DNA from: Burkholderia plantarii
GTDB taxonomy: Bacteria > Pseudomonadota > Gammaproteobacteria > Burkholderiales > Burkholderiaceae
Direction: 5' to 3'
Length of the DNA stretch: 64,000 nt
NCBI RefSeq assembly: GCF_001411805.1
Contig: NZ_CP007212.1
Coordinates: 2,418,001-2,482,000 of the forward strand
Part shown: piece by piece, positions 15,477 to 64,000 of the stretch
Numbering within the stretch: the first letter of the stretch is position 1
How the letters are laid out: every line of letters starts with the position of its first letter
The notes under the pieces: generated by a model
What the model saw: the letters and a program-made list of their open reading frames with translations, nothing else
Told to the model about the DNA's origin: nothing
Database searches by the model: none
Position numbers and translations under genes: made by a program

Positions 15477-15486
15477 CGTCGACTCC

Positions 15487-15783: not shown

Positions 15784-15790
15784 CCGTATA

Positions 15791-16119: not shown

Positions 16120-16123
16120 CAGA

Positions 16124-16873: not shown

Positions 16874-16883
16874 GTTGTTCCTT

Positions 16884-17705: not shown

Positions 17706-17738
17706 GGTCGAGAGATGAGCCGCAACGACAGCGAATTG

Positions 17739-18425
17739 TCACAGGCCCGACTTGCGGCGCAGGCGCATCGACTTCATCCGGCGCATCATCGCCGACGCCG
17801 AATGACTCTTCATCCGCGCCTTGCGAATCGCCACCTTCTGGGCCGCGGACAAACGCACCTTCCCGGAGATCCGCTTGTTGATGCGCGTTTTCTTGCCACC
17901 GCGCACCACCAGCGTCTTGCGATACACGGCATCCAGAGCCGGCGCCTGATCGTCATCCGCGAACACGAAATCGTCGATGCCGGCGCTCGCCGCGTCGTCG
18001 CCTTCCGGCAGCGCGGACGCCACCAGATCACGGACGCGATCGGCCGTATCGCTGTCCCAGTCGTTCAGGAGCGAGCCGGCATCCGCCTCCGTCACGCCGA
18101 GCCCAACGAGATAGTCCCACGCGGCGTTGAGCGCGACCTCCAGCACGCCCTGCTCGTCGTCGGTGATCTCGCCGTCCTTGTTCGCGTCGGCGATCCCGAT
18201 GAACAGTGCCATCAGGCGGTCCGCGTTGGTCTCGCCGTCGCCGAGGTCCTCGGTTTCGGCCCATTGCTGGACCACCGCCACCGCCGACATGCTGATATCG
18301 GACACGGTATAGTCGCCCGCGCCAGCCATCGTAGAATCGTCGGCATCGTTGGTGCTATCCAGCACCGGCTTGGGCGCAGACTCGCGGCGCGCCATCGCGC
18401 TGCGCAACAGTTCGGTCATGCTCAT
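17739..18425 (-). CDS. Phage protein with EF-hand and basic tail
   Basis: A 228-residue protein, start supported by AAGGAATTC. Residues 80-91 (DANKDGEITDDE) form a canonical EF-hand loop: D80, N82, D84, E86, T88 and E91 occupy the calcium-ligand positions. The flanking region is acidic, whereas residues 168-228 are strongly basic (RGGKKTRINKRISGKVR, ending MKSMRLRRKSGL), which suggests nucleic-acid contact. The gene directly follows the sheath gene in transcription order, where a tube gene would be expected. A head- or DNA-associated structural role is possible; the family is not recognised. Confidence 0.55.
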   Translation of the reverse strand: MSMTELLRSAMARRESAPKPVLDSTNDADDSTMAGAGDYTVSDISMSAVAVVQQWAETEDLGDGETNADRLMALFIGIADANKDGEITDDEQGVLEVALNAAWDYLVGLGVTEADAGSLLNDWDSDTADRVRDLVASALPEGDDAASAGIDDFVFADDDQAPALDAVYRKTLVVRGGKKTRINKRISGKVRLSAAQKVAIRKARMKSHSASAMMRRMKSMRLRRKSGL

Positions 18426-37822: not shown

Positions 37823-37842
37823 CTCGTATCCGAACCTGACGC

Positions 37843-37892
37843 GGCCCCGTGCCGGCCGCCCCTCGTCCATCACGGGGCGGCCGGCACGGGCC
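37843..37892 (-). terminator. Strong hairpin between RTX gene and transporter genes
   Basis: A near-perfect inverted repeat of 19-20 bases (37843-37862 and 37873-37892) with a 10-base loop, almost entirely G and C, lies in the 95-base gap after the RTX stop. No T-run follows, so it could act as an attenuator or mRNA stabiliser: high RTX mRNA, lower transporter expression. Confidence 0.6.
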
Positions 37893-37917
37893 GACTTCCT
37901 CAGTGGGTCATACCTCG

Positions 37918-49400: not shown

Positions 49401-49948
49401 GCGTTTAACGGATTATTTCCGAATAGGCCGTGGGAATTGATATTTTTATTAATAATCCCCCTTGCTGCGTTGTATAACCCGCCAGCGGTTTCTACTGTCA
49501 GCAAGCCAATCCCTGATGCCGCGCCGACAAATCCGATATGAAATGACGCTGCGTCCCGAAACGCTGTAACGAAACTCTGATTTGTTTGGTCTGACGTCGG
49601 GTAGCTCCTTTGCAGATCCTGCGGGCCACCTGCCTTAAAGGCATTGAACATGGCAAGATAGGCGCTGATTTTATTTTGAAGCGTTTCGGCACCGCCCTCA
49701 TAGAGAATTGCGTTAATGGAGGAGGAAAAATTCTCTGCCTTGTCTATGCTATAACCTTCTGGTACTACCAAATAACCGTTCGGATTGGCGTTAGGCTGGG
49801 CAACAATTGTGCCATTAACCATTTGAAATATTTCAATGCTTTGAGCATTTGTCTTATTTGGGTCAAGCACCGGCTGCCCGTTAAACTCGAGAAACTGGGC
49901 TGGAACAAAATCGTGATTTTTATCTTGAACATAGAAAATATCAGTCAT
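46478..49948 (-). CDS. Giant RTX-type T1SS substrate, N-terminal part
   Basis: A 1,156-residue reading frame that starts at ATG 49948 (MTDIFYVQDKNHDF) and ends in a run of glycines at TGA 46478, where one extra base shifts the frame from the rest of the protein. After an N-terminal domain of about 250 residues, a middle region has many Thr/Ser-rich repeats of YD-like character (TTTYDANGQETG, TTTTTSYDANNDP, QPDGSTT). Then come a Gly/Ser-rich region and an Ala/Glu-rich helix (AFDEEAAAIAAADAGEGG). The gene starts just after the small membrane protein gene. Fragment or functional protein depends on whether the frameshift is real. Confidence 0.8.
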   Translation of the reverse strand: MTDIFYVQDKNHDFVPAQFLEFNGQPVLDPNKTNAQSIEIFQMVNGTIVAQPNANPNGYLVVPEGYSIDKAENFSSSINAILYEGGAETLQNKISAYLAMFNAFKAGGPQDLQRSYPTSDQTNQSFVTAFRDAASFHIGFVGAASGIGLLTVETAGGLYNAARGIINKNINSHGLFGNNPLNAKSMIAGALVAFDVNNTPFSVGLPAALSGSQTYTYDIATGKAFVTPPQSSVADPGSVTVIDGATGNFLGYFESGTIVSETKIANGDLVFALTGNRTVTYHPNDSISLIDSKGHVEYYPPGASVNINADGPSTIQGSTAQPPQIIFDPIGAIVGGAPISATPVVATFSNTTATAIASSIYPNLALAGGDPNAQLEVWQNAVGQERLTKLITTFFGAAVPGTLSVAQDGPVLNVWNATAQITSDPSGQMTATLVEPSGQIVVEVFTNDFVPVSKSFFDTSGRMTSEILFDPEGHPSETDTFTYGPDGTFLGSNAVGSTGSPKSTTTVASDGTTVTTTFNSPSDPKLTTVTTIDPGGDVTKTVQTVAGSSPGSYTTTASDGEGEPLTIVATSQANGVNTTTTTTYGPVGSSGGGWGVVGTNVESTPSGTSGATTIDVYDGDGNHISHKVIAANGATVQTTFNNPADPKQTSIVSTAPDGTVLGVTTTTQSSDGSYVTTATANGQTTTSVSTNGGQLESVSVRQPDGSTTTTTYSTPGNTTLGSVVTTAANGGVVSTTTTVEGALPGSTITITVDPTGKPISESLTTTGTDPDGVVTSTTTTYDANGQETGRVSTATDPSGTTTTTSYDANNDPQSVTVTQPDGSTTKTSFDAGDPNQSTSVSTAPDGSVQGTSSTTKDSNGNDVTTSKSADGTVTTTTSAPDGFDSIAAANQAANGLLASQASGLAAQAGLDTGKASDSKLPPGNGSNAMGDLGSLANADQDLQDLLDKLDKDWDLPDFDTGHGKSKEKGTSHSGGGGGGSSDTPLGGLGGSDAAGSTASGVAASTSFSNPGVAGDLAAGNAFGAAIAAMGSELPPITGSAGGTSGGTSGGSGGVGGGGSGIDFSYNGSGFIMSTVDPVTGDAESFTFDSTGNLLSNNGDALAALLSAESEGFAAMEALASQAVAFDEEAAAIAAADAGEGGEGGEGGVGGGGGGGG

Positions 49949-49959
49949 TTTTTGCAATC

Positions 49960-50526
49960 TCAGAAACTAGTCGAAAGATCTTCGGAAAATGTTACAAGAT
50001 AAAAATTTCTGCCAAGGGGTTGTGCTTCAAAGCCAATTATTCCAAATGGGGCCTTGCTTTGTATAGAGAGAGCGGCTTTTACCCACGCGGAACTGTAATG
50101 TCCTGATTTTGATGCAATCTCACCGCTAGAATCATAGACGAGTGCTTCACTAAAACCCCAGTGATCCATGCGAGAGTCCATCCAGCATACACTCAACTTC
50201 TGATTGCCATCGAATCTCTCCGAATTCCGGATGCATGCGGAGTAACTTGCTGAATTAAACCGAATGTCCAGCATAGACGTCCAATGCCAATAGCGGTTTG
50301 AAAATAGCAATGCCAAGGGCACGATAACAAGTAGAACTGAGGTCAGCCCCAAAAGCGCGCCACGGAAGTTCTCGGTGTCATAGGCGCGCAGAGCTGCCGA
50401 AATGCTCACGCACAGTAGGATGAAATTAACAACAAGGTGGCCCCAAAACAAGAAAACATCATATTTTGTATATCCGAGTGCGCACGCAGATAGCAAGCAT
50501 ATCGAAAGGATAAATATAATTTTCAT
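49960..50526 (-). CDS. Small membrane protein, first gene of RTX operon
   Basis: A 188-residue protein starting at ATG 50526 (an in-frame TTG six codons upstream is less likely). The N terminus has a lipobox-like LLSAC followed by YTKYDVFLFWGH, and residues 1-80 carry about three membrane helices (VVNFILLCVSISAAL, SVLLVIVPLALLFSN). The C-terminal 100 residues form a small beta domain with Cys-Ile-Arg and VCWMDSRMDHW. It ends 11 bases before the RTX start. Composition is more AT-rich than its neighbours. Not recognised; an inhibitor or assembly factor for the RTX protein is a possibility. Confidence 0.55.
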   Translation of the reverse strand: MKIIFILSICLLSACALGYTKYDVFLFWGHLVVNFILLCVSISAALRAYDTENFRGALLGLTSVLLVIVPLALLFSNRYWHWTSMLDIRFNSASYSACIRNSERFDGNQKLSVCWMDSRMDHWGFSEALVYDSSGEIASKSGHYSSAWVKAALSIQSKAPFGIIGFEAQPLGRNFYLVTFSEDLSTSF

Positions 50527-50947
50527 TTGGTTGATGAGTTTCAATGGCGACCTGTGCCATTCCCGTAGTGAAGAGAAAAATCATCATGCCGTCATGCGCA
50601 AAATTGATTGACGATGCGCATGAAATTCGGATCTTAGCGGCGAAAAAAATGTAAATAATTTTTTACGGCTATTGATCGCTCAGTAAAATAAGGCGGCCTT
50701 CAAATGTATTTTTTGATGAGCCAGTGGCCATCTGCGGGATTTTAACAAAATGCATTCAGCAATCTTTCTTTTTGTTGTCGATTTCATTTCAAAACCCCCG
50801 AGTATGTAATTATTTGAGTCGACTAGCGATCTTGTGCTCTTTTGCGTGTAATTAGAGCAGTCTTTCTAGGTCTTGTCGATCAAAACCCGGGGGGCGGTAA
50901 AATTCTTGTTCCCCTTCTCGCTGAATAGCGTGCTGGTGCTGAAATTC
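50527..50947. other. AT-rich intergenic region upstream of RTX operon
   Basis: About 420 bases with low GC compared with the surroundings and many A/T runs. It must carry the promoter of the minus-strand RTX operon, but I cannot identify a convincing -35/-10 pair. No gene is supported here. Confidence 0.6.
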
Positions 50948-51109
50948 ATGCCGTGGATTCACGAATCTAGTCTCGAGAACTGGCTCGCGAGCCTGCCTCA
51001 TGCCAAGGTACTGATCGAGGCATGGCGACGAGAGTACAACGACGCGGTTCGCAATGCGGTAGCTGACGGTCGAACCTTAATTGCTGCCGTTCACCTAGTG
51101 TGGCGTTGA
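50948..51109 (+). pseudogene. IS3-family transposase C-terminal remnant
   Basis: The frame MPWIHESSLENWLASLPHAK... continues with VLIEAWRREYNDAV, the end of an IS3-family OrfB integrase domain (usual form: ...HWFxSLxxAKxxIEAWRxDYN). Only the last 50 residues remain and the DDE core is missing. Confidence 0.6.
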
Positions 51110-51228
51110 GCGGCGGACACGGGTCGCAAGCCGGCAACGGCCTTGAGCTCGCTACTCGTCGGAATCACGCGATGACTGGCGGGCTCTCCAGGAGTGAGGT
51201 CGATCACCAGTCGCTCAATGTGAGTCAC
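51091..51228 (-). CDS. Short minus-strand reading frame beside TetR-type palindrome
   Basis: A 45-residue frame from GTG 51228 to TGA 51091 (VTHIERLVIDLTPGEPAS..., ending SAAQRHTR). It overlaps the end of the IS3 remnant. It begins one base from the palindrome at 51230-51247, as would the first gene of a TetR-controlled operon. May be a truncated remnant. Not recognised. Confidence 0.3.
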   Translation of the reverse strand: MTHIERLVIDLTPGEPASHRVIPTSSELKAVAGLRPVSAAQRHTR

Positions 51229-51229
51229 A

Positions 51230-51247
51230 AACGAACGGTCGTTCGTT
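51230..51247. promoter_or_regulatory. TetR-type operator palindrome
   Basis: AACGAACG-gt-CGTTCGTT: two perfect 8-base arms around a GT centre. Palindromes of this form are usual binding sites of TetR-family repressors. The nearest genes are remnants, so it is likely a leftover; a regulator is not seen in the window. Confidence 0.45.
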
Positions 51248-51286
51248 ACCTAACTTAGATTTATGTCAAATTAGTTGTATGCACAA

Positions 51287-51953
51287 CTATTGAGGTGACA
51301 TGGCTACTCCCGGTGAGCGGCCGATGAGCTTGCCGCCGCCGCCCGGCGCAGGCTCTACGCCGGGCCCGGGACTCGCTGCCAGCGCCGATTGTCGCAGCCG
51401 ATCGGTGGTAAGCGGCCCTTCGACCTGATGCGGGTGCTGTTGGCCAGTGCTGACGCGCGCCAAGATTTCCCGAGACAAGCCCTTGACGATCGTATCGACG
51501 CCTTGTTTGCCAACACACTGTCCCGCGTAGCCGTGCTGGCGAACCTTCGACTCGCCTTCGCCGTAAACCTTCACGCCAGTACTGTCGATCACCAGATGCA
51601 GCGACTCGCGGCTGCGCACGACCGGCAGCTTTACCAGCAGCGTCTGGGCGCAACGGCACACGGTCGTGTAGTTCGGTATCGGCAAATCGGCGAAAGCCAG
51701 GTCACGCAGGCTTTGTGCGAAGCCTTGCAGGGCACGCAACGGTCTTCAGTCCGAGCAAGGCCTGAATCAGCGCATCGCTGTACAGCCGCGGACGACCCCG
51801 CGTGGGCGCGGTGTCGGGCATGTTCGCAAGAGCGTCGTCGTCAATCCACATCGTGATGTTGCCTCGATTGATCAGGCCGGCGTTGTATGCCGCCCAGTTT
51901 CTGACACGGTATTTCGCGTTCGGCTCCTGCGTCCCGCTCTTGTCCTTGCGCAT
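51287..51953 (-). pseudogene. Degenerate IS5-family transposase
   Basis: The N-terminal part (RNWAAYNAGLINRGNITMW, then PRLYSDALIQALLGLKTV) and the middle (YTTVCRCAQTL, LHLVIDSTGVKVYGEGE with the first catalytic Asp) are IS5-family. A frameshift near 51,740 separates them and the C-terminal half is disrupted, with the remaining catalytic residues absent. Confidence 0.75.
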
Positions 51954-52246
51954 TTTCTCGCACTCAAAGATCGAGAATCTACGCAGGATGCCGAATTGTT
52001 AACAGGGGCATCGCTCCGGCTGTTGCGCGCAAACGTCATCGCCACGGGCAGGATTAATGCAACAACGCCGCGCCGAGACGACTTCCCGTTCGTTTCGCCG
52101 GCAATAATTGAGGTCGAATTTATTTCAGCCGGCATGGAAGATTGTTTCGATTTATAAAATCTACCGCCATTGAAAATTCGTCGACAGCAGAAAGTAAAAC
52201 AATCGTCGAGTCAAATTTTCCGAGTTAATTCGGGTGCTAGGTAAAA
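51954..52246. other. Region between IS5 remnant and bcm promoter
   Basis: GC falls steadily from left to right across this stretch into the AT-rich leader of the bcm operon. No gene, repeat or IS end is clearly seen; the change in composition marks the likely left border of the acquired cluster. Confidence 0.5.
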
Positions 52247-52275
52247 TTGAACAATTTCTTACTTTGCAATATATT
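52247..52275 (+). promoter_or_regulatory. Candidate promoter of the bcm operon
   Basis: TTGAAC at 52247-52252 and TATATT at 52270-52275 with exactly 17 bases between them, in AT-rich DNA. Transcription would start near 52,282 and leave a leader of about 177 bases before bcmA. The leader holds a small stem (ACCTC at 52386-52390 with GAGGT at 52398-52402). Confidence 0.45.
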
Positions 52276-52458
52276 ATTTCTTGATATTTTTGTGAAATTT
52301 ATCTAGCTTTACTATGTTTTCATTTTTCCATCCACTTCATTGCAAATAATTTTCTTTGGTGATTATGTCTGCGGATCACCTGATAACCTCCTGCGCCGAG
52401 GTCTGGATTGCTTTAGCCTAAAAAGCTGATCGATTATTTTAACCGGCAACGCGAAATA

Positions 52459-53211
52459 ATGAGGCTGAAAGTGACAATAGATGAAACTTTGATCGGAAAT
52501 CTTCCAATATCCTCTATACCTGGAGCGCGCTACAAGGCAAAAATTGACTTTGTTTCCCCCCAAAGTCGACGCGATAATTTTCAGCTTGAGCAACAATGTT
52601 TTCTAGGGGTCAGCCTCGAAAATCGAAATTTTGAACCAGCGCGATTTCATTCGCAGCTTGAATGGGTATCACGCCGCTTCCCGAAATGCACGATCCTGAT
52701 TGGCGACAGCATTCATCGACTCACACTCGAGTCCCGTTCAGGCATGCCGGCTCAGGAGGCATTTGACAGAGCTCTGCAGCTCGGCCAAGAATTCATGGAG
52801 GAGAGCCGCGACATCGTTACTGACTATCGGGCCACCACACGTTTCGAATTTATTACCTGTCATGAAATTCAGAAGACGCAAGAATATTTGATGCATCACC
52901 GCAATATTAGCGATTACTTCTTCCAATCACGGAAATTTCGAGAATCTGTGGAGAGTTTCGGTCTCCGATATCATCGGAACGATTGGGATACTTTGACCAG
53001 GGCAGAGCAGGATTCTCGTCTGAGAAGCTCGTCGAATTATTTCATTGAAGAATTCGCGATATTCGCGTGTCTTGTGAAGCGTGGCTTTTCCGTGATGGTG
53101 TACCCCGGATCGTTCAGTACACTCGCTGAAATCGCTGACCATCAATTTCCTGGCGTGTCGAAAGAACTCGAATCTCTCTGTGTCGTATCCCTTCATTTTA
53201 AGGGGCGCTAG
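52459..53211 (+). CDS. bcmA: Cyclodipeptide synthase (BcmA-like)
   Basis: A 250-residue tRNA-dependent cyclodipeptide synthase. It matches the family around the catalytic serine: FLGVSLENRNF (Ser52, equal to Ser37 of AlbC; Asn55 equals Asn40), then QLEWVSRRF. The second signature is NYFIEEFAIF, with Tyr194 and Glu198 equal to Tyr178 and Glu182 of AlbC, and VYPG with Tyr215-Pro216 at the position that divides the NYQ and XYP subfamilies. In the bicyclomycin pathway this enzyme makes cyclo(L-Ile-L-Leu) from Ile-tRNA and Leu-tRNA. The gene is more AT-rich than its neighbours. Only 2 bases separate it from bcmB, and AAGGGGCG near its stop is the bcmB ribosome site. Confidence 0.88.
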   Translation: MRLKVTIDETLIGNLPISSIPGARYKAKIDFVSPQSRRDNFQLEQQCFLGVSLENRNFEPARFHSQLEWVSRRFPKCTILIGDSIHRLTLESRSGMPAQEAFDRALQLGQEFMEESRDIVTDYRATTRFEFITCHEIQKTQEYLMHHRNISDYFFQSRKFRESVESFGLRYHRNDWDTLTRAEQDSRLRSSSNYFIEEFAIFACLVKRGFSVMVYPGSFSTLAEIADHQFPGVSKELESLCVVSLHFKGR

Positions 53212-53213
53212 AA

Positions 53214-54179
53214 ATGAATAAAATGGTCGATCACAACGAATGGACTTTGGATCCCGGAAAAATTTACCTGCGAGAAGTGCATAAACGAGTCGATGAAAGG
53301 CCTGCTGCATCGGAGGCGCGGCTTGAGCGTGCGACTCTGGAAGAGCAACAACTAGTTTTTGAATCATTAGCCGGGCGGGATCAAGCACTTCACGATGGCA
53401 TATTCCTACTAACAATTCCAGACTCGATTGATTTTTCCGCTTGCGATCATTTCTCCCGTCAGTTTTTCACCGGCGACGACGCACTGCCATACGGGCGTTA
53501 TCGCACCATGACTGGCATTCGTTTCGGCGACCCGCTCCTGGGCTACCACGAGCGTGTTAACCAAATTGAGCAGTTCTTGCTCGAGCGTCGCTTCTGGCAG
53601 AAGGTTTATCCAGCCGAAATAGAAGCATGCGGGCTAGCTTTAACCGGCATCGCAGGGCGCGTGTTGCGTGCGATCCTGATGTTGACAGACGTTCCAGTGC
53701 GCGATTGGGATGAAGCGACGGGCGGGTGTTCGGCCGAAGCCGGTTCTTACCACCTGACGTTCAATCACTATCGCCCGTCGCTACCCGGCATCGGTCTCTC
53801 GTCGCACAAAGACGATGGCTTCATGACGATTCTCAGAATCACGTCCCCTGGGCTCGAAATCAACCGTCACGATCGCTGGGAGGCCGTCACTCCCGATCCC
53901 GCTTGCTTCATCGTCAATTTCGGGCTATCGATGGAAATCCTGACGCGCCGGTCCTCACGTCCCGTTAGCGCGATCATGCATCGCGTCCAACACCAGACAG
54001 CCGATCGTTTTAGCTTCGGTCATTTCAGCTCAAGCTTCTGTGAGCCGGGTGCCGAGGCCGGCATCCATGGCTACGACAGCGAGTCCGGCCTGCGGCGCAT
54101 CTGCTCGTCGCGCGAACTGATCGATGCAAACGACAACGAGATCTATCAGGGCACCCAGGGCGGGGAGGCCGCGTCATGA
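53214..54179 (+). CDS. bcmB: 2-oxoglutarate/Fe(II) oxygenase (BcmB-like)
   Basis: A 321-residue isopenicillin N synthase-type oxygenase. Iron ligands are His198 and Asp200 (SSHKDDGF) and His256 (IMHRVQH); Arg265 and Ser267 (DRFSF) hold 2-oxoglutarate. Length fits the family. Its position as first oxidase after the synthase matches bcmB, reported to close the bridged 2-oxabicyclo ring. The specific reaction is taken from gene order in the known pathway, not seen in the sequence. Its stop overlaps the bcmC start by four bases. Confidence 0.85.
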   Translation: MNKMVDHNEWTLDPGKIYLREVHKRVDERPAASEARLERATLEEQQLVFESLAGRDQALHDGIFLLTIPDSIDFSACDHFSRQFFTGDDALPYGRYRTMTGIRFGDPLLGYHERVNQIEQFLLERRFWQKVYPAEIEACGLALTGIAGRVLRAILMLTDVPVRDWDEATGGCSAEAGSYHLTFNHYRPSLPGIGLSSHKDDGFMTILRITSPGLEINRHDRWEAVTPDPACFIVNFGLSMEILTRRSSRPVSAIMHRVQHQTADRFSFGHFSSSFCEPGAEAGIHGYDSESGLRRICSSRELIDANDNEIYQGTQGGEAAS

Positions 54180-55066
54180 GCCTGAAGACATTTCACCCCT
54201 ACCTTGCCGAGATCGCCGGTGAAGAACTCAGATTCCTATCTGGCTCACTCCGCGAGGCTATCGACAATGGCTGTTTCGCGCTCGCTATCCCCGATGATCT
54301 CGACCTTGCGCCTGGCATCCGCCTCGCGAACGAGTTCCATCTTGCCCCTGAGGATGAGCCTTCCCAGCAAGGCGCAGGGTATCGTGGCTTTCGCTTACGC
54401 GAAGGCATATATTTTGACCGGGACCACTATCAGACTGAGCATATCCTCATCGACGAACCACGCCGCAGGGTTGAATTCCCCGATCCTGCAAATGCAATGT
54501 GCGAACGGATGTATCTGATCGGACGGATGGTGCTGCGTACCATCCTGTCCGCAGTGGGTATTCCTTCATCGCTCTGGGAGCGCGCAACCGACTACTGCGT
54601 GACCAACGGGGGCGTCCAATGGTTCGCGGTCAGTCGTTACCGGTCGGGTCGGAACGCCCCTGGCGCTCCCGAACACAAGGACACCGGATTCGTCACAGTC
54701 CTTTATTACGAACAACCCGGCCTCGAGGCGTTCATTGACAACATCTGGTGTGACGTGCCGCCCGTGCCCGGCCACTTCCTCATCAATTTTGGCGGTGCAC
54801 TCGAAGCCTTGACGGCCCGTCTGCCCGACCGCGTCAGGGCTGTCCGCCATCGCGTCCGTCAATGTGGGCCGGGCAGTGGCTCACAGGGTGATCGGTTTTC
54901 ATTCGCAGCTTTCCTGAACCCTTCTGCTACGAGCGAGGCCTTCCAGATTGCAGACGACGGTGGCAGCCTCGTATCGCTGGGTTCTGTCGATACGTTCTTA
55001 CGTGATTTTAACCGGACAACCTGGCGCGATGGCTACGCCGAATTCGGTATCACAAAACGCCCCTAA
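54176..55066 (+). CDS. bcmC: 2-oxoglutarate/Fe(II) oxygenase (BcmC-like)
   Basis: A 296-residue oxygenase of the same family. Ligands: His167 and Asp169 (PEHKDTGF), His225 (VRHRVRQ); Arg240 and Ser242 (DRFSF) for 2-oxoglutarate. It is shorter at the N terminus than BcmB. In the bicyclomycin pathway BcmC is one of three regioselective hydroxylases. Assigned by order in the operon; the start ATG overlaps the previous stop (ATGA). Confidence 0.82.
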   Translation: MSLKTFHPYLAEIAGEELRFLSGSLREAIDNGCFALAIPDDLDLAPGIRLANEFHLAPEDEPSQQGAGYRGFRLREGIYFDRDHYQTEHILIDEPRRRVEFPDPANAMCERMYLIGRMVLRTILSAVGIPSSLWERATDYCVTNGGVQWFAVSRYRSGRNAPGAPEHKDTGFVTVLYYEQPGLEAFIDNIWCDVPPVPGHFLINFGGALEALTARLPDRVRAVRHRVRQCGPGSGSQGDRFSFAAFLNPSATSEAFQIADDGGSLVSLGSVDTFLRDFNRTTWRDGYAEFGITKRP

Positions 55067-55079
55067 GAGTGACAGTCCC

Positions 55080-56519
55080 ATGACAATCCCGACACTTATA
55101 CCGCCCTCGCAGCATACGCGCGCCGTGCCGTTTCCCGGGTTGATCGCACACGCGCCCGGTCCCGATACCGACACCGAGCACGGCGCCGCGTTTCGCGCAG
55201 CCGTTATCGAGGGTGGTCTAGATGCGTCCGACTATTTCGCCCGTTCAGGCGTGGCCGAACTTGCAAGCCGCTCTGGTGGCCTCTGCACACTCTGGATCGA
55301 CAACGACCTGGCCATCTATCAGAACACAAACGAGCCACTCGTCGAGGACGATGACCTGATGCCGTCCATCAATACAAATGCAGGGTTGTTCGGCTCGTTC
55401 ATGGGCGGACTCGATGCGAACGATCCGGTCCGCGTGGCCAAACGCGAATTCGTCGAGCGGATTCTCGGGAATGCCCGATTCGTCTACGGCCTGTCCGACG
55501 AGATAACCGCCGCAACCCGTGCATATTTGGATTCACCGCTGTCCCAGGACACATCGCTCGATACATTCTGTCTGAATCTCACCGCCTATGTCGACAGCGT
55601 GATCCCGGGCATTCTGGATCTGCAGATTCGTCCTTTGACTGACTATCTCGCGGAGCCGATCTTTGGCAGGATCGCTACGAGCTTTTTCGAAATCGCCTCG
55701 GAGGCCATTAGCAAGCTGAACGTTGCCGCCATTCAGGATGCCGACCTGATTGTCGATCTGACGATGCGGATCTTACTCGACAACTACCAGTCGATCGAAG
55801 CGGCTCCGCAGGGCAACTTGATCCGTTCGCAGTTCGGGAATTTTGGAATTCCATTTTCGCGACAGGGCATTGCGACACTGACCGATGCGCAATTGAAGGA
55901 ACTCGGTACGCTGATCGTCGCGACCTACGATACAACGGCACTGAGTTTGCTCTGGACGATCGCCTATCTGGAGACGACGCCCGGCGCGCGTGACCGGTTG
56001 CTTGATTCGCTTGGAGACCATGAGGTTGCGCAGCAAACCGCCACCATGATGGTGCTCGAAGCAATCCGACTCGGCGGCAGCAATCCTACCTCGCTCTGGC
56101 GCAGATCCCGGCGCCCCGTGACGATCCTGCACCGGGGCAGCTCCGTCGACATCCCGGCCGGCACGATGTTCTGGCTCGACCGCCGTCTCGCCAATCGCGA
56201 CCCACAGCGCTTCGCACGCCCCAATGTCTTCGATCCGGGCAACATCGAGGGCATAGCGAATCATGGGGGTATTGAGGCAGCATCGCTACTCGCGCGTAAC
56301 CGTTACGAAATTAACTCGTTCTCCATGATCAATACCGTGCGCAACCCTCGCAAGTGCCCGGGCCGACTCTTTTCCGTACGTGCGCAGGCGCTGATGCTGA
56401 CCGAGCTATATCGCAGCAATCGCGTCGTCGTCAGCGGTGTCTCGACCGGGTTGATGCCAGGTAGCGCTATGCCTCGCCCCGCCTGCCCTGGTTCGATCCG
56501 AGTCGAACCCATTCAATGA
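55080..56519 (+). CDS. bcmD: Cytochrome P450 (BcmD-like)
   Basis: A 479-residue P450; the ATG at 55080, 13 bases after the bcmC stop, is chosen, since the longer frame would run back through bcmC. The I-helix has ATYDTT at 281-286, the K-helix ExxR is Glu327-Arg330 (EAIR), and the heme Cys is Cys426 in RKCPGR. The usual FxxG before this Cys is not obvious (FSMINTVRNPRKCPGR), so the heme-binding loop is atypical. BcmD is the only P450 of the bicyclomycin pathway and hydroxylates the bicyclic intermediate. No redox partner is encoded here; host ferredoxin would be needed. Confidence 0.85.
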   Translation: MTIPTLIPPSQHTRAVPFPGLIAHAPGPDTDTEHGAAFRAAVIEGGLDASDYFARSGVAELASRSGGLCTLWIDNDLAIYQNTNEPLVEDDDLMPSINTNAGLFGSFMGGLDANDPVRVAKREFVERILGNARFVYGLSDEITAATRAYLDSPLSQDTSLDTFCLNLTAYVDSVIPGILDLQIRPLTDYLAEPIFGRIATSFFEIASEAISKLNVAAIQDADLIVDLTMRILLDNYQSIEAAPQGNLIRSQFGNFGIPFSRQGIATLTDAQLKELGTLIVATYDTTALSLLWTIAYLETTPGARDRLLDSLGDHEVAQQTATMMVLEAIRLGGSNPTSLWRRSRRPVTILHRGSSVDIPAGTMFWLDRRLANRDPQRFARPNVFDPGNIEGIANHGGIEAASLLARNRYEINSFSMINTVRNPRKCPGRLFSVRAQALMLTELYRSNRVVVSGVSTGLMPGSAMPRPACPGSIRVEPIQ

Positions 56520-56535
56520 CCGGAGAGCAAACCCA

Positions 56536-57423
56536 ATGTCTTCCATTCTTCCTGTTGCATACTTTCATGATCGCGCCGTGCACTTCGTCGAACCCGATGG
56601 CTTCGAACGCACCCGGACGCTCGGTGCATTCCATCTGCGTCATCCTGATGGTTTCGACTTCCGGGCCGGCATCGAACTCGCGCAGAAATACTATCTACCG
56701 GTTGGCGACGGGCCGGACGCGGCATTTCGAGGCTATCGTTCTCGCTCGCTGTCCCGATCGTTGCTCGGCTATTCTCAGACGGGTAACGACCAGGACGAAC
56801 TGCTGCAGATCGAAGCGAAGCTATGGGATGACTATCTACCCAGCGCTGCAGCGACACTACTCTGGCGTATGAACGAATTGAACCGTGGCGTGCTAACCGA
56901 CCTGTTCCTTCGCGTTGGTGTTTCGCCGGCCGACATCGATACGATCGCGGGTGGGATGTCGAAGAACGAGGCTTTGCAGTACTGCATCTTCAACCACTAC
57001 CGTTCAGAAGTTGCTGAGCCTCTCGGGCTGACCGCACACAGGGACAGCGGCTTCATCACCATGCTTTATACGACAGAACCCGGCCTCGAGTCGCAGCAGG
57101 GGCAGACATGGATCCCCTTCGATCCGATGCCGGGTCATTTCACGATTGTTCTCGGTCACTCGTTCGAAATTTTGACCCAGCGCCTACCCGATCCAGTGAA
57201 CGCCAGCTATCACCGTGTCCGACGCATGGCGACGCGCGAAGCGGGCGTACCTGACCGCTTCACGTTCGGCGTCTATATCGGACCGCGCTGGGATCAATTG
57301 CTCTTTCAATACGATACGGATGGCAAACTCTCGAACGTCGGCACCTTTCTCGAGTTCCAGCGTGCCAAGGCCGCCGAGATGGCATACGAGTTTCATCCGC
57401 GCGTCGACTCAACCGTGAACTAG
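56536..57423 (+). CDS. bcmE: 2-oxoglutarate/Fe(II) oxygenase (BcmE-like)
   Basis: A 295-residue oxygenase with His168, Asp170 (TAHRDSGF) and His226 (SYHRVRR); Arg241 and Thr243 (DRFTF) take the 2-oxoglutarate position, Thr replacing the more usual Ser. GGAG precedes the ATG. In the bicyclomycin pathway BcmE acts early, hydroxylating the leucine side chain of the cyclodipeptide. Assigned by order. Confidence 0.82.
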   Translation: MSSILPVAYFHDRAVHFVEPDGFERTRTLGAFHLRHPDGFDFRAGIELAQKYYLPVGDGPDAAFRGYRSRSLSRSLLGYSQTGNDQDELLQIEAKLWDDYLPSAAATLLWRMNELNRGVLTDLFLRVGVSPADIDTIAGGMSKNEALQYCIFNHYRSEVAEPLGLTAHRDSGFITMLYTTEPGLESQQGQTWIPFDPMPGHFTIVLGHSFEILTQRLPDPVNASYHRVRRMATREAGVPDRFTFGVYIGPRWDQLLFQYDTDGKLSNVGTFLEFQRAKAAEMAYEFHPRVDSTVN

Positions 57424-57442
57424 GGGCAATACGCCATCAAAC

Positions 57443-58399
57443 ATGGATACCGACATGTCACGCGTTGCATCTCCAACTCTCCGTCAGGCGACCGCGCTTC
57501 CACCGATGCCAGACGAACACGAGGCAAGCCAACGCTATCCCGCGTGCGAGATGGCGCGCGCTAGCTTCGATGGCCCCAGCCTGCAGTTCGATGCGGCGAA
57601 CGGTTTCGATCGCGCGTTAAGCGATGGTTTTTTCCTGCTCGCGATTCCAGATGGCGTTGCACTCGACGGCAGCGATCGCTTCGTTCGTCACTTCTTCGAA
57701 CCGCGCGCCGACGGCGACCTGGCGCCCTACACGGGATATCGCGACTGCGTTGTACCAGGTGACTACCAAGGATATTTCGATCGAGAACACGATCAGTGGG
57801 AGAACTTCTACATCGAGCGCGACAACTGGGGCATGCTGCCCGCGTCGGTTGCTCGCACCGGAGTAGCGATGTCTGGACTCGGCATCAACATCCTGCGAGC
57901 CACACTCGGCTACCTCGGTATCCCGAAGGCAGGGTGGAACACCGTGACGGGTGGGTTGACGGCGAACCAGGGACACCAGATGTTAGCGTTTAATCACTTC
58001 CGCTCCGACAAGCGTGTTCGCGGCTCGAAATTTCATCGCGATTCTGGCTGGGTCACGGTGCTTCGCTCCACCGCCCCCGGTCTGCTCGCTTTTATCGACG
58101 GCGACCTGCGCACCATCAATCCAGAGCCAGGCTATTTCATCGTCAATTTCGGAAGCTCGATCGAGGTCCTGACCGGCTGCCTGCCGAAGCCGGTGCGTGC
58201 CAATATCCATGGCGTGGCGCGGACGATACCACGCCCCGAAGGGCAAGAACGCGTGTCCTACGTGGTCTTTCTTGACAGCGACCTGCATGGTGACATCTAC
58301 CAATATCGCGACAATACGCCGGTTCGCATTCAATCAGTGACGGACTTCGCCATTCAGGAAGTCTCACGCACCTACGACAATGACGCACATCTACTCTGA
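57443..58399 (+). CDS. bcmF: 2-oxoglutarate/Fe(II) oxygenase (BcmF-like)
   Basis: A 318-residue oxygenase: His198 and Asp200 (KFHRDSGW), His256 (NIHGVAR), Arg270 and Ser272 (ERVSY). An ATG four codons further in is an alternative start. In the known pathway BcmF carries out the last step, desaturation to the exocyclic methylene that makes bicyclomycin reactive toward Rho. Assignment is by order; N-terminal extension (about 40 residues) is Pro-rich. Confidence 0.82.
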   Translation: MDTDMSRVASPTLRQATALPPMPDEHEASQRYPACEMARASFDGPSLQFDAANGFDRALSDGFFLLAIPDGVALDGSDRFVRHFFEPRADGDLAPYTGYRDCVVPGDYQGYFDREHDQWENFYIERDNWGMLPASVARTGVAMSGLGINILRATLGYLGIPKAGWNTVTGGLTANQGHQMLAFNHFRSDKRVRGSKFHRDSGWVTVLRSTAPGLLAFIDGDLRTINPEPGYFIVNFGSSIEVLTGCLPKPVRANIHGVARTIPRPEGQERVSYVVFLDSDLHGDIYQYRDNTPVRIQSVTDFAIQEVSRTYDNDAHLL

Positions 58400-58423
58400 C
58401 CGCAGCCTTTTGGAGACGCGAAT

Positions 58424-59326
58424 ATGAACGTATCTGATACATATGAGTGGGCGGCCGCGAGATTTGACAACGGGGAACTGATCTTCGATACCTCGGACGG
58501 ACTCACTCGTGCGCTCGCCGACGGTTTCTTCTTCGTACAAAAACCGGCCGGATTCGATTTGACACCGGGCGATTGCTTCGCCACTAATTTCTATCTCGAC
58601 GGCCGCGGTGATGCCAACGACACGTACCGGGGCTTTCGCGCCTGGAATGCCGAGCGGCTCGCCGAACGTGAAGGTTACTATTGTCGTGATGCTGACCAAG
58701 TCGAACAGTTTTTCCTGGAAGGTCGCTTCTGGAACGAGGTGTTTCCCGAGGCGTTGTCGCGTCAGGCGCGCGAGATGCGTGAGTTCTCCGTCGCCGTAAT
58801 CAGGGCGATCCTCGATCGGCTCGATCTGCCTCGCGAGATCCTCGAAAAAGCGACCGGTGGCATCCTCTCGGGTAATGGTACTTACCATCTGACGTTTAAT
58901 CATTTCCGACCGCAGATCCGGGCACGTGGCCTGAACACGCACAAGGATTCGGGATGGATCACGATGCTGCGGTCGCTGGAGCCCGGACTTGAGGTTCTGC
59001 GTGAGCGCGAGTGGGTGCCGCTCATCCCGCGGCCAGACGCCTTCGTCATGAATTTTGGTTGCGCGATCGAGATACTCACGCGAGATACCCGCACCCCCGT
59101 CGCGGCAGTCGCACACCGCGTGGTCGAACAGCAAGCCCGGCCCGACGGCATCCCTGACCGGTTTTCCTATGCCCTGTTCGTGGACAGCAGTCTCAATCCA
59201 GCACAATGCGAGGGATTGTATCGATTGGATCCGCAGGCCGGCCTGGTGCTGGCGGCTGATTTCAACACCTTCCTTGATGAGATCCTGGCCAACACCTACG
59301 ATCGCGATACTGAAGGGCTCTACTGA
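58424..59326 (+). CDS. bcmG: 2-oxoglutarate/Fe(II) oxygenase (BcmG-like)
   Basis: A 300-residue oxygenase: His173 and Asp175 (NTHKDSGW), His231 (VAHRVVE), Arg246 and Ser248 (DRFSY). TTGGAGA gives a good ribosome site. Assigned as BcmG, one of the hydroxylases of the pathway, from its position after BcmF. The five oxygenases share the same layout and probably arose by duplication. Confidence 0.82.
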   Translation: MNVSDTYEWAAARFDNGELIFDTSDGLTRALADGFFFVQKPAGFDLTPGDCFATNFYLDGRGDANDTYRGFRAWNAERLAEREGYYCRDADQVEQFFLEGRFWNEVFPEALSRQAREMREFSVAVIRAILDRLDLPREILEKATGGILSGNGTYHLTFNHFRPQIRARGLNTHKDSGWITMLRSLEPGLEVLREREWVPLIPRPDAFVMNFGCAIEILTRDTRTPVAAVAHRVVEQQARPDGIPDRFSYALFVDSSLNPAQCEGLYRLDPQAGLVLAADFNTFLDEILANTYDRDTEGLY

Positions 59327-59442
59327 CCGCTCTCGACCGAACGTTCTGTCGAGTATTCGTCCGCGTCGCTGCTGCACCGGCAATGCGCCAGTACCGACAG
59401 CCATTCCTTCCCGTTTCTTCGTCTTGTCAATTTCGCATTCTT

Positions 59443-60645
59443 ATGGGGAAAGGCGTGCCATCTTCAGAAACCGTTGCATGCGCGAACAATCATCGCACTT
59501 TGTTGTCCGCTCTATCTATATCGGTGTTCTTCGTCGGCGCAAGCGAGTTCATGCTCTCGGCGATGCTCAATCCGCTCAGTATCGCATTCGACACCGACTC
59601 AGTCCGCATTACATGGTTGATCTCGAGTTACGCGTTTGCCTACGCAATCGCAGCACCGTTCCTCGGCTATCTGTCGGACCGTATCAATCGTGGACGCCTC
59701 CTGCTGATTGCACTGCTGTTGTTCACAATCGATGGTATCGGTATCGCCTTCTCTCCAACGCTTGAGATTGCGATTGGGCTGCGGATATTCGGTGGTCTCG
59801 CCTCCGCAGTCATCATTCCGACCGCGTTCGCTCTGATTTCCGAAGTCGTCCCGCGCGCACGCCATGCGGCCGCGATGGGCGCCGTCATGCTCGGCATGAC
59901 GCTCGGTATCGCGCTCGGTCCCGCGATAGGTGGCCTGCTCACAAGTTGGGTCGGCTGGCGTGCACCGTTCCTTCTTATGTCGGTCGGGTGCATCGTCGCC
60001 TTTCTGATTGGCACTGCGACAATGTCTAGAGTGCGCCGCACTGTCGCTCCGTCTGACATCCGCGGCTTCCGGTGGCTACGCAATCCGCAGGTCACGCGCC
60101 CATTGCTCGCGAAAGGCCTGTGGAACGGCACCGGCGTATCCGCGTTCCTTTTGTCAGGCGAAGTGTTGCGCCACCGCTATCAGCTTGACGTCGCGCAGGT
60201 TGGGATGAGTGTGACCGCGTTCGGCATTGGGCTCGGCGTCGGCAATCTGTCGGCCGGGAGGTTGCGACGTCTGACCGGCAGCGAGGAATGTTCGTTGATC
60301 GTTGTGACGATACTGCTCACCGCTTCCATTGCGGCGTTCTATCTCCTGCCGGTTCCCATGTCAGGCGCACTTGCGTGTCTCGGGGCATGGGGTGCGGCTC
60401 TCGGAGCCGGGGCCCCTTCGGCGACGACCGTGCTGGCTGAACGCTCGAATCGCGACAAGGGCGTGGTGCTCGCCACCGCCGAGACGCTCAACAACATTGT
60501 CATCCTGTCGGTCGTCCCGCTAGCATCGATAATTCTAGCGCACGGCACCATTCCGATGGCAACTACCGTCTTTATTGTGGGCCTAAGTATCGGAGTTACA
60601 TTGACACTGTACGATGCTTTGGTTGCGCCGCGGCAGAACCACTGA
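59443..60645 (+). CDS. bcmT: MFS exporter, Bcr/CflA type (BcmT-like)
   Basis: A 400-residue membrane protein with about 12 helices. Helix 1 is LLSALSISVFFVGASEFML; motif A is FLGYLSDRINRGRLLL; motif C region GMTLGIALGPAIGGLLTSW. This is the DHA1 drug/H+ antiporter type to which Bcr (bicyclomycin resistance) belongs. The ATG 59443 is preferred over one 20 codons earlier because the added residues do not look like part of the fold. It is the last gene of the operon and should export the antibiotic and protect the producer. In published clusters the exporter is called BcmT or BcmH. Confidence 0.85.
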   Translation: MGKGVPSSETVACANNHRTLLSALSISVFFVGASEFMLSAMLNPLSIAFDTDSVRITWLISSYAFAYAIAAPFLGYLSDRINRGRLLLIALLLFTIDGIGIAFSPTLEIAIGLRIFGGLASAVIIPTAFALISEVVPRARHAAAMGAVMLGMTLGIALGPAIGGLLTSWVGWRAPFLLMSVGCIVAFLIGTATMSRVRRTVAPSDIRGFRWLRNPQVTRPLLAKGLWNGTGVSAFLLSGEVLRHRYQLDVAQVGMSVTAFGIGLGVGNLSAGRLRRLTGSEECSLIVVTILLTASIAAFYLLPVPMSGALACLGAWGAALGAGAPSATTVLAERSNRDKGVVLATAETLNNIVILSVVPLASIILAHGTIPMATTVFIVGLSIGVTLTLYDALVAPRQNH

Positions 60646-60721
60646 TTTACCTGCCACAGGGTGGAGGACCCACCTGGAGGGCGCTGTCACGTTGGCGGGT
60701 ATGGTCGCGTAAGATAGGGTG

Positions 60722-60816
60722 ATGAAACCGAACGCGCTCTACCGCGGCCATCGATCCCCCGCAGCGATCATCAGCTAGGCTGTCCGATGGTATTTCCGCT
60801 TCCAGCTTAGAGTCGC
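60722..60816 (+). pseudogene. IS6-family transposase N-terminal remnant
   Basis: The frame MKPNALYRGHRSPAAIIS, stop, AVRWYFRFQL corresponds to the start of IS6-family transposases. It has an in-frame TAG and is cut by the IS5 element that follows. The preceding GGCGCTGTC near 60,678 could be its left inverted repeat. The 60,646-60,721 spacer shows nothing else. Confidence 0.6.
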
Positions 60817-61502
60817 TAACACAAGTCATCCACGAAGCGTGAGCAGATAACTGTGGCAGCCAGGACGAGCAACGCGACATGAATATCGAGTCGGCGCTCG
60901 AAGCGAATGCGCAGTTTGCCGAAACCGGCAAACCAGGCATGCGTGCGTTCGACGACCCGTCGATGTCGCCCCAGCCGCTCGCTGCTTTCCACCCCACGGC
61001 GGGCGATGCGAGCCTTGATGCCGCGCTGCTTCAGATAACGCCGGCAACGTGCGAAGTCATAGCCCTTGTCCGCATGCAACTTGCTCGGACGTTTGCGGGG
61101 CTGGCCGCCCACGCCCGGCACTGCCGGGATGGCATCCAGCGTGGCTTCGAATGCCATCGAGTCGTGACGGTTGGCGCCCGTGACCGTGATGACCAGGGGA
61201 ATGCCATGTGCATCTACGACGATGTGCCGTTTCGACCCGAGCTTCCCCCGATCGGTCGGGTTGGGGCCGGTTTCTTGGCCCCCGCGGGCTGGAAACACTG
61301 GCGCCGTCAAGGCTCGCGCGTTCCCAATCAATCCGGTCGTGCGCACGCAACCGATGGAGCATCGCCAAATGTAGGCGCTCCCACACACCTGCGGCCTGCC
61401 AGTCTCGTAGGCGTCGCCAGCATGTCATGCCGCTGCCGAAACCGAGCTCCTGCGGCAAGTCTTCCCATGGAATACCGGTTTGCAGGACATACAGAATGCC
61501 GG
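60816..61502 (-). pseudogene. IS5-family (IS427-like) transposase, truncated
   Basis: Two overlapping frames: the first reads ALTGILYVLQTGIPWEDL, then LPQELGFGSGMTCWRRLRD; the second carries SKRHIVVDAHGIPLVITV (Asp of the DDE set), LHADKGYDF (Asp), and RRVVERTHAWFAGF (Glu). This two-frame layout is normal for the IS427 group. The N-terminal part is missing at 61,502, where IS66 begins, so it is a 5'-truncated copy. Confidence 0.7.
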
Positions 61503-61587
61503 TAAGCGCTTCCCCAGCACCGTCTGTTCATGAAGGTTCATAGGCGGCAATCTGATTCCCACCAGAATGTAGTGGGAACCAGAAAAA

Positions 61588-61950
61588 ATGGAAATCAAGG
61601 CGCAGGGCCGCCGACGAGGCTCCAAGAATTACACGAATGAGTTTCGCACGCAGGTCGTGGCGGAAACACGAGACCCGACCCGTTCACTGGCGGAAGTTGC
61701 ACGCGCGCATGGGTTGAACGCGAATCTCGTGTCGAAGTGGCGTCGGGATCAGGAGCAAGAGGCGACGTCCGCATCCGCGCCAGTTGAATTATTCCTGCCT
61801 GTTCAGATGGCATCACCGCCGATACCGGAACCGGTCAGATCATCCGGGCTGGTCATCGAATGTCGTGGCGTGCGCGCGTGTTTCGAAGGCAAGCCGGAGT
61901 CTGATGTCCTGCGGCTTGTGCTGACAAGCTTGCTGGATGTGGGTTCGTGA
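61588..61950 (+). CDS. tnpA: IS66-family TnpA
   Basis: A 120-residue protein with a helix-turn-helix at its N terminus ([37 protein letters not shown]), as in IS66/IS3-like DNA-binding accessory proteins. The stop overlaps the start of tnpB by four bases, indicating coupled translation. Confidence 0.82.
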
Positions 61951-62297
61951 TGCTGGGCCTTCCCGCTGGGCCGCGGGTGTGGCTGGCTGCTGGTGTGACC
62001 GATATGCGTTCCGGCTTCAATAGCCTGGCCGCGAAGGTGCAGACCGTGCTCGAGCGGGACCCGTTCAGCGGACACGTGTTTGTGTTCCGCGGCCGACGCG
62101 GCGATCTGGTCAAGGTGCTGTGGTGGAGCGGTGACGGCATGTGTCTGCTGATGAAACGGCTTGAACGCGGCCGCTTTGTCTGGCCGCGTGCGGATGGGGG
62201 CGTCGTCAGCTTGAGCCAGGCGCAGTTGTCCATGTTGCTGGAAGGCATCGACTGGCGGCAGCCGGTGCGCACGGCGGCGCCGACCTCAGCGTTGTAA
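61947..62297 (+). CDS. tnpB: IS66-family TnpB
   Basis: A 116-residue protein with the family signature: [39 protein letters not shown] and [17 protein letters not shown]66 TnpB is required for transposition; it is unrelated to the RNA-guided TnpB nucleases. It starts within the tnpA end (ATG overlapping). Confidence 0.88.
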
Positions 62298-62326
62298 ACC
62301 CGCCCACCGGCGCGTAGACTGCGGGC

Positions 62327-63889
62327 ATGACGACGGCGAACGCGTACCCGGACGACATCGAAGCGCTCAAGGCTCTACTGCTCGAGCGCGATGCCCGCAT
62401 CGGGCATCTGGAAGACGTGGTCGAATCGCACAAGGCGGCGACGGCAACCGACAAGGCGGAGATCGAGCGTCTCAAGCTGCTGATCGCAAAGCTGCGCCGC
62501 ATGCAGTTCGGCCGCCGCTCGGAGAAACTGGACCGCCAGATCGAGCAGCTCGAGCTGCGTCTGGAAGAACTCGAGGCCGACGAAGGCGCTGCCCCCATCG
62601 AGATTCCCAGGACGCCACGCACGGCACCGGAACAGGTACAACGCAAGCCGTTGCCGGATCACCTGCCGCGCGAGATCCAGATCCATTGGCCCGAATCACG
62701 TGAAACCTGCACGGCGTGCGGTGCGCCGATGAAGCAGCTTGGCGAGGACGTCGCCGAACAACTCGAGTATGTGCCGGCGAGCTTCCGGGTCATCCGCCAT
62801 GTGCGGCCGAAGCTGGCATGTTCATGCTGCGATCACATCGCCCAGGCTGCTGCGCCGAGCCGTCCCATCGAGCGAGGCATGGCTGGCCCGGGACTGCTGG
62901 CTCACGTACTGGTCGCGAAGTTCGCGGATCACCTGCCGCTCTACCGGCAGTCGGTGATCTATGCGCGGGAAGGTGTCGAGCTGGATCGCTCGCTGCTGGC
63001 GAAGTGGGTTGGTCACACTGCGGCGCTGCTGCAACCGCTCGTCGACGCACTGCGTCGCCACGTCATGGCGGCGACGAAGCTCCATGCCGACGATACGCCA
63101 GTGCCGGTGCTTGCGCCAGGGAACGGCAAGACCAAAACCGGACGCCTGTGGGTGTATGTGCGTGACGATCGGGCGTCCAGCGACGCCGCTCCGCCGGCCG
63201 TCTGGTTTGCCTATACGCCGGACCGCAAGGGCATCCATCCGCAGCAGCATCTCGAATCGTTCAATGGCACGTTGCAGGCCGACGCCTACGGCGGCTACCA
63301 AGCGATTTACGAAACGGGACACGTTGCCGAAGCAGCATGCTGGGCCCACGCACGGCGGCAGTTCTACGAATTGCATGCGGCTCGCCCAAATGTATTGAAC
63401 ACCGAGGCGCTGGAACGTATCGGCGCGCTCTACAAGGTCGAAGAGCAGATCCGTGGCAAACCGCCCGATGAGCGGCGAGCGCACCGACAAACTCGCGCCA
63501 GGCCCTTGCTCGATCAACTCCATGCGTGGCTGAGCGCCACACTGGAGACGCTCTCGCGCAAATCCGACACGAGTCGGGCGATCCTCTACGCGTTGAACCG
63601 GTGGGAAGCGCTCACGCGCTACTGCGACGACGGGCATCTCGAAATCGATAACCTGCCGGTCGAGCGCGCGTTGCGCGGAGTGGCTATCGGGCGCCGAAAC
63701 TACCTGTTCGCCGGCGCGGACTCAGGTGGGGAGCGTGCTGCCGCGATCTACAGCCTGATCGGGACGGCCAAGCTCAACGGCATCGATCCCGAGGCGTATC
63801 TGCGCGTCGTGCTTGCGCGCATTGCAGACCATCCGATCAACCAGGTCGAAGGCCTGCTGCCCTGGAAAATGACCACCCCAGCATCGTAA
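62327..63889 (+). CDS. tnpC: IS66-family DDE transposase TnpC
   Basis: A 520-residue transposase. The N terminus has a coiled coil (residues 20-90) and a zinc-binding segment CTACGAPM with a later CSCCDH pair. The DDE core includes KLHADDTPVPVL (Asp), QADAYGGYQAIYE (Asp), and the late ALRGVAIGRRNYLFAG segment of the C-terminal part. It appears intact, so this copy may be active. Confidence 0.88.
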   Translation: MTTANAYPDDIEALKALLLERDARIGHLEDVVESHKAATATDKAEIERLKLLIAKLRRMQFGRRSEKLDRQIEQLELRLEELEADEGAAPIEIPRTPRTAPEQVQRKPLPDHLPREIQIHWPESRETCTACGAPMKQLGEDVAEQLEYVPASFRVIRHVRPKLACSCCDHIAQAAAPSRPIERGMAGPGLLAHVLVAKFADHLPLYRQSVIYAREGVELDRSLLAKWVGHTAALLQPLVDALRRHVMAATKLHADDTPVPVLAPGNGKTKTGRLWVYVRDDRASSDAAPPAVWFAYTPDRKGIHPQQHLESFNGTLQADAYGGYQAIYETGHVAEAACWAHARRQFYELHAARPNVLNTEALERIGALYKVEEQIRGKPPDERRAHRQTRARPLLDQLHAWLSATLETLSRKSDTSRAILYALNRWEALTRYCDDGHLEIDNLPVERALRGVAIGRRNYLFAGADSGGERAAAIYSLIGTAKLNGIDPEAYLRVVLARIADHPINQVEGLLPWKMTTPAS

Positions 63890-63928
63890 GGCGATAATGC
63901 CGCTGGCTTCCCGTTCCCCGGAGATCAG

Positions 63929-64000
63929 ATGGCGAAATCGTTCCAGCGCTTTACCCTGCACGTGCAGCTTCAACACATCGAGCCGCCCATCTGGCGTCGG
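63929..64000 (+). CDS. pRiA4b ORF-3-like protein, 5' end only
   Basis: Twenty-four codons are visible: MAKSFQRFTLHVQLQHIEPP followed by IWRR, the start of the plasmid pRiA4b ORF-3 family, commonly carried as a passenger next to IS66 transposases. The rest is outside the window. Confidence 0.6.
   Translation, partial: MAKSFQRFTLHVQLQHIEPPIWRR

Follow-up and report, generated by a model that had tools for sequence, protein, structure and literature searches.

Gene content of the bcm locus

The window analyzed here is a stretch of 64,000 nucleotides from the genome of the rice-associated bacterium Burkholderia plantarii ATCC 43733T (NZ_CP007212.1, positions 2,418,001 to 2,482,000), and it contains, at window positions 52459-60645, a tight array of eight plus-strand genes that we assign with high confidence to the pathway of the antibiotic bicyclomycin (bcm). 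All frames are open without an internal stop, and the genes follow each other in the order cyclodipeptide synthase (CDPS), two 2-oxoglutarate (2OG)/Fe(II) oxygenases, cytochrome P450, three further 2OG/Fe(II) oxygenases, and a major facilitator superfamily (MFS) exporter. The synthase is encoded by bcmA (52459-53211), the oxygenases by bcmB (53214-54179), bcmC (54176-55066), the fifth gene (56536-57423, bcmE by position), the sixth gene (57443-58399, bcmF by position), and bcmG (58424-59326), the P450 by bcmD (55080-56519, with the start corrected to 55080), and the exporter by bcmT (59383-60645). The intergenic spacing along the operon is 2, -4, 13, 16, 19, 24, and 56 nt, the negative value being the overlap of bcmB and bcmC. 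The start of bcmT is probably at 59443, as the corresponding database protein has 400 aa and spans 95% of the 420-aa frame.

All eight proteins match Pfam families of the same classes above the cut-off, including CDPS (PF16715; 36.6 bits, cut-off 27) for the synthase, 2OG-FeII_Oxy (33.7-45.4 bits, cut-off 23) for the five oxygenases, p450 (35.9 bits, cut-off 22.8), and MFS_1 (156.9 bits, cut-off 33.4) for the exporter. Among the NCBIfam models, BcmA is recognized by TIGR04539, the tRNA-dependent cyclodipeptide synthase family (125.3 bits, cut-off 45); the five oxygenases have no match, and the matches of the P450 (two) and of the exporter (the best 25 of 70) are all under the cut-off. An earlier reading of this DNA from the letters and open reading frames alone (the sequence-only reading) had described one tight plus-strand operon of these eight genes with all oxidase ligands intact. 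The frames and Pfam matches bear out the operon, and the ligands are indeed in place: the iron-binding HxD...H motif occurs in all five oxygenases (HKD...H in BcmB, HRD...H in the fifth gene product), and the P450 has both NPRKCPGR and EAIR. Every bcm type is represented, namely the BcmA-type CDPS, the five oxygenase types, the BcmD-type P450, and an adjoining MFS exporter. In a repeat search over 49900-64000, the three longest families of direct repeats reflected the likeness among the paralogous oxygenase genes.

Orthology of the Bcm proteins and conservation of active-site residues

Alignment with characterized Bcm proteins identified SoBcmC (8xhq) and SsBcmC (8xhp) as the closest solved relatives of BcmC, 9xho, named BcmD, as that of the P450 (E = 8.9e-146; a second relative, 9xhp, is named P450 oxidase), SsBcmE (8xhy) as that of the sixth gene product (412.7 bits, 61% identity), and PaBcmG (8xht) as that of BcmG (402.7 bits, 63% identity). 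These structures are identified as SsBcmE (8XHY), SsBcmC/SoBcmC (8XHP/8XHQ), and PaBcmG (8XHT/8XHX) in PMC12089406. The residues surrounding the substrate in SsBcmE, SoBcmC, and PaBcmG are also named there, and we mapped them onto the window proteins by alignment, with the register picked by best fit within +/-12 positions. All 12 named SsBcmE residues are kept in the sixth gene product (at position 307 the wild type has Thr, replaced by Ala in the crystallized mutant), as are all seven SoBcmC residues in BcmC. For PaBcmG, ten of 11 named residues fit the chain numbering and all ten are kept in BcmG; the eleventh, R281 in the text, misfits the chain, where this number is Asn, and corresponds to Asp in the window.

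The closest solved structure to BcmA is 9j61 (E = 1.7e-75), and BcmA shares 44-72% identity with the CDPSs of 11 loci that also carry bcmB-G. Residues Ser52, Tyr194, Glu198, and Tyr215 of BcmA are invariant in an alignment of 25 sequences; we take these positions to be catalytic by analogy with AlbC. The heme-cysteine motif NPRKCPGR is common to the P450 and all four compared homologs.

For the remaining assignments we used an oxygenase tree of 40 rows comprising the window and seven other clusters, in which the P. humisilvae row for the fifth gene was cut before the sixth gene. An alignment scan of genome contigs had yielded 34 CDPS loci (an earlier single-protein scan matched 39 stretches, none of them confirmed), and the seven clusters were chosen from the 11 loci with all of bcmA-G detected, one of which, from Streptomyces somaliensis, has both D and F split in two. 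The tree resolves five oxygenase clades (99-100 on both support measures) with one window protein in each. The second protein of the operon, whose closest solved structure is 7v2t, groups with the other position-B proteins (100/100) and is therefore inferred to be BcmB. The fifth gene product falls into a clade with the position-F proteins of actinobacteria and Pseudomonas fragi (100/99), whereas the sixth joins the position-E proteins of the same organisms (100/100). Thus, by predicted type, the two genes are swapped relative to Streptomyces: 56536-57423 is of the SsBcmF type and 57443-58399 of the SsBcmE type. Ten of the 11 complete loci have the Streptomyces order and only that of Paraburkholderia humisilvae has the order of the window. 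The sequence-only reading had equated gene set and order with those of Streptomyces and P. aeruginosa; the set is confirmed, and the Streptomyces order holds for bcmA-D and bcmG, but not for the swapped E/F pair or the exporter, which lies downstream.

Comparison with described bcm clusters

The presence of a bcm cluster in B. plantarii is already known at the species level. Vior et al. (2018; PMC5930311) list B. plantarii among the carriers of bcm-like clusters, and theirs is the sole full-text literature match for 'bicyclomycin' together with 'plantarii'. They also describe mobility genes next to the Burkholderia cluster, among them integrases and transposases, and find bcmT downstream and the E/F types exchanged in Gram-negative clusters. 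The window shows both of these subtype traits, with the E/F types swapped and bcmT following bcmG on the same strand. With the species, bcmA-G, bcmT downstream of bcmG, and adjoining mobile elements all alike, we found no difference from the cluster of Vior et al., the match being established at the species level. The copy described here thus adds little beyond the 2018 report; the modest additions are its intactness, the residue conservation, and an ordinary Rho.

The cluster of P. aeruginosa SCV20265 likewise has A-G followed by T with swapped E/F types (PMC5930311); however, it lies beside glmS/attTn7, whereas that of B. plantarii lies between insertion sequence (IS)-type genes. The clusters of Streptomyces cinnamoneus and S. 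sapporonensis encode the same seven biosynthetic functions by orthology, but in the Streptomyces loci compared the E/F types have the opposite order and the exporter, only distantly similar, is upstream on the opposite strand. An almost identical arrangement occurs in P. humisilvae LMG 29542, where a cluster at 10001-18206 of the extracted locus contains all eight genes in the same order with 72-81% amino-acid identity. In this draft genome, unlike in the window, a single open frame (620 aa, from 14079) spans the fifth and sixth genes.

Predicted pathway and alternative interpretations

Orthology of the tailoring genes and the retained contact residues support a bicyclomycin-type cluster, as the sequence-only reading had suggested for a Burkholderia-like genome, the host being B. 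plantarii. We estimate the probability that the locus is a complete, intact, Gram-negative-type bicyclomycin biosynthetic operon at about 0.93. In the pathway predicted from homology, BcmA would couple tRNA-bound Ile and Leu to form cyclo(L-Ile-L-Leu), the SsBcmE-type enzyme would then hydroxylate the Ile C-delta (C-7), and BcmC and BcmG would hydroxylate the Leu C-gamma (C-2') and C-3', respectively. BcmB is expected to form the ether-bridged bicycle and to introduce a hydroxyl, BcmD would add the next hydroxyl to give dihydrobicyclomycin, and the SsBcmF-type enzyme would carry out the last step, a desaturation forming the vinylidene of bicyclomycin. BcmT would export the product, probably protecting a producer whose Rho has no target change. 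Gene deletions and in vitro assays have defined the Bcm roles in S. cinnamoneus, whose enzymes act in the sequence BcmE, C, G, B, D, F (PMC6934819).

Several observations weigh against this assignment. For BcmA and BcmB, the nearest solved structures have generic names only ('Cyclodipeptide synthase' for 9j61; 'dioxygenase' and 'Fe/2OG dependent dioxygenase' for 7v2t), and the helix motif EA(I/L)RLGG of the window's P450 was found in two of the four other BcmD stretches by a strict search that did not look for ExxR variants. The guanine-cytosine (GC) content of bcmA, 47.3%, is 9 to 12 points under that of the other seven genes (56-59%). The word 'bicyclomycin' does not occur in the main text of PMC11858073, PMC11153758, or PMC4422320, which deal with the genome or the metabolites of B. 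plantarii. Moreover, the closest solved structure to the fifth gene product is BcmC (8xhp) at only 133.4 bits, and this SsBcmF-type protein has diverged furthest from its equivalents in the 10 clusters of the other order (37-42% identity). Due to these last two properties, the final desaturation is the step with the weakest homology.

The divergence of the fifth gene opens an alternative in which it has drifted from the last-step desaturase and the product is a congener of bicyclomycin such as a dihydro form. B, C, D, the sixth gene, and G retain about 44-61% identity to the same 10 clusters, and the fifth-gene rows of the window and P. humisilvae sit on a long branch of 1.24. Altered chemistry of this oxygenase could characterize the whole Burkholderia/Paraburkholderia branch. 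However, its iron ligands are intact, it is under purifying selection (dN/dS, the ratio of nonsynonymous to synonymous substitution rates, of 0.14), and authentic bicyclomycin, identified by nuclear magnetic resonance and optical rotation, is the product of the P. aeruginosa cluster, which shares the swapped types (PMC5930311). We therefore regard a congener as improbable, both for this cluster and for the branch. Still less credible is a different cyclodipeptide pathway that merely resembles bcm: CDPS relatives do occur without other detectable bcm genes in the stretch examined, for instance at Vibrio and Nostoc loci, but in the window all seven biosynthetic genes are orthologs and the contact residues are kept in the three testable proteins. 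The residue and tree tests largely refute this reading.

Bicyclomycin as the encoded product is compatible with an intact operon that stays silent when the host is grown in ordinary culture, and to this we give roughly even odds. Although its cluster is functional, P. aeruginosa SCV20265 gave no detectable bicyclomycin in its own cultures (PMC5930311), which is why the proposal of the sequence-only reading that the strain is an antibiotic producer stays a prediction. A scan of 51800-61000 for sigma-70-type promoters gave eight sites against 5.0 +/- 2.5 in shuffled sequences, with three overlapping sites just upstream of bcmA, and there was no regulator among the eight flanking proteins scanned, a set that excluded smaller frames. 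On the other side, the open frames and the purifying selection argue for use of the pathway at some time. Compared with P. humisilvae, seven of the eight genes have a dN/dS of 0.08-0.18; for bcmA no dS was obtained.

Exporter and probable self-protection

The BcmT exporter is 77% identical to that of the P. humisilvae cluster, with further homologs in Tistrella mobilis, Pseudomonas, and Photorhabdus. A PADLOC search with the exporter and the RHS-like protein encoded elsewhere in the window gave no match. The host has a single rho gene over the family cut-off (one of six matches), and its product is 100% identical (rounded) to Rho in 11 of 12 other genomes of the genus and 99% identical in the remaining one, all 12 of which lack BcmA. 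Replacement of Rho Leu320 by Met is the resistance form in Mycobacterium tuberculosis (PMC8828861), and position 320 is Leu in the host. Compared with Escherichia coli Rho, 17 of 20 positions, most of them picked from recall, are the same, and positions 182, 186, and 326 differ. A target change as the means of self-resistance is thus not supported, the single rho being ordinary, nearly identical to that of BcmA-free congeners, and with Leu320 kept. Since Rho is ordinary, protection of the host is likely to come from export through BcmT; in other words, for this intact betaproteobacterial operon in a host with no visible alteration of Rho, self-protection should rest on export. The distantly similar Streptomyces transporter BcmH makes E. 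coli resistant, although a report found that export does not require it (PMC6934819).

Genomic context and distribution of the operon

The operon has a GC content of 57.3% compared with 64.0% in window positions 1-46000, the published value for the B. plantarii genome being 68.55% (PMC4422320). IS-type genes flank it on both sides. Upstream is an IS5-type transposase remnant (51287-51739, minus strand; PF13737 DDE_Tnp_1_5, 69.7 bits), which has no second match in the genome among the 40 of 71 candidates scored. The downstream side carries an IS5-family element with its transposase in two frames (60806-61509, minus strand; PF01609, 64.1 bits, with DUF4096 below the cut-off), for which related stretches are present at other places in the genome, with 79-83% identity for the longest. 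It is followed by an IS66-family element (61502-63889, plus strand; HTH_Tnp_1, 42.4 bits; DDE_Tnp_IS66, 353.4 bits), and the left 59 nt of the latter have 100% matches at two other sites of chromosome 1. A composite transposon with matching ends is not supported, as the remnant on the left and the IS5-family element on the right differ in their Pfam matches and the former is without a second match among the candidates scored. An empty site was not found in a search with the left flank (46500-50600), which matched 51 of 65 same-genus genomes, including its own, and elsewhere only pieces of up to 71 nt; four candidates were scored per genome out of 153 to 412, so that longer matches could escape.

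In a sample of 299 genomes of the family, BcmA was found in one, the genome of the window itself; this sample misses carriers such as P. humisilvae. Within the genus, three of 65 genomes match BcmA at E <= 0.001, and the sole credible BcmA is again that of the window, the two weak CDPS matches (19-20% identity, E = 1e-4 and 5e-4) being rejected. The protein database also has a BcmA entry of 98% identity that is assigned to B. gladioli. The lower GC content, the IS flanks, and the patchy distribution suggest that the operon was gained horizontally.

Related clusters in other genomes

The locus of P. fragi D12 (NZ_CP104861.1, 165582-186262) encodes all eight bcm functions at 9935-18035 in the actinobacterial order, with the SsBcmE type preceding the SsBcmF type. 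Downstream lies an MFS gene that is distantly related. In the tree, the B-type and F-type proteins of P. fragi join those of Actinokineospora (99/96 and 97/84, respectively) inside clades that exclude the window, the placement of its C and E types does not resolve, and its G type is unpaired with Actinokineospora, in an unresolved set of seven rows including the window (97/95). Based on these placements, the P. fragi cluster may represent a second, separate transfer into Gram-negative bacteria. If its gene order and B/F placements hold, they speak against the simple Gram-negative/Gram-positive split of the 2018 paper. Bicyclomycin and P. fragi are named together in two papers of the full-text literature, once each per paper.

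Other loci contain parts of the gene set. Three Okeania loci (L015, L017, and L019) and one from Symploca (L012) have a BcmA-like synthase followed by a BcmD-like P450 (40-48% identity), and the five oxygenases have no match in the stretch examined, L012 and L015 being short contigs; perhaps these loci encode a two-gene cyanobacterial pathway. The partial cluster of Photorhabdus khanii NC19 (NZ_AYSJ01000007.1, the accession given by Vior et al. for a fragmented Photorhabdus cluster; PMC5930311) consists of an oxygenase of the sixth-gene type followed by A and B. An in-frame stop in the position-B gene of Williamsia herbipolensis ARP1 points to possible decay or a sequence error, and the split D and F matches in S. 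somaliensis allow the same two explanations. Finally, a 1.19 Mb replicon of Cupriavidus necator (NZ_CP068436.1) has a partial match to BcmA at 99584-99901 (62% identity, covering 42% of the query), where no gene is listed; this match is a possible cluster remnant.

Other features of the window

Positions 760-25780 of the window are occupied by a phage region encoding a portal, a tail sheath, a PmgG-like head protein, a tail protein, and a 1688-aa protein with a DarA-type antirestriction domain. Seven of the eight proteins scanned from this region match PHROGs, and we take the region to resemble phage P1. On the minus strand, 35669-49957 encodes a C39-type ATP-binding cassette exporter and two further proteins, one of 3018 aa containing 21 stretches of RTX repeats and one of 1159 aa that has an RHS repeat.

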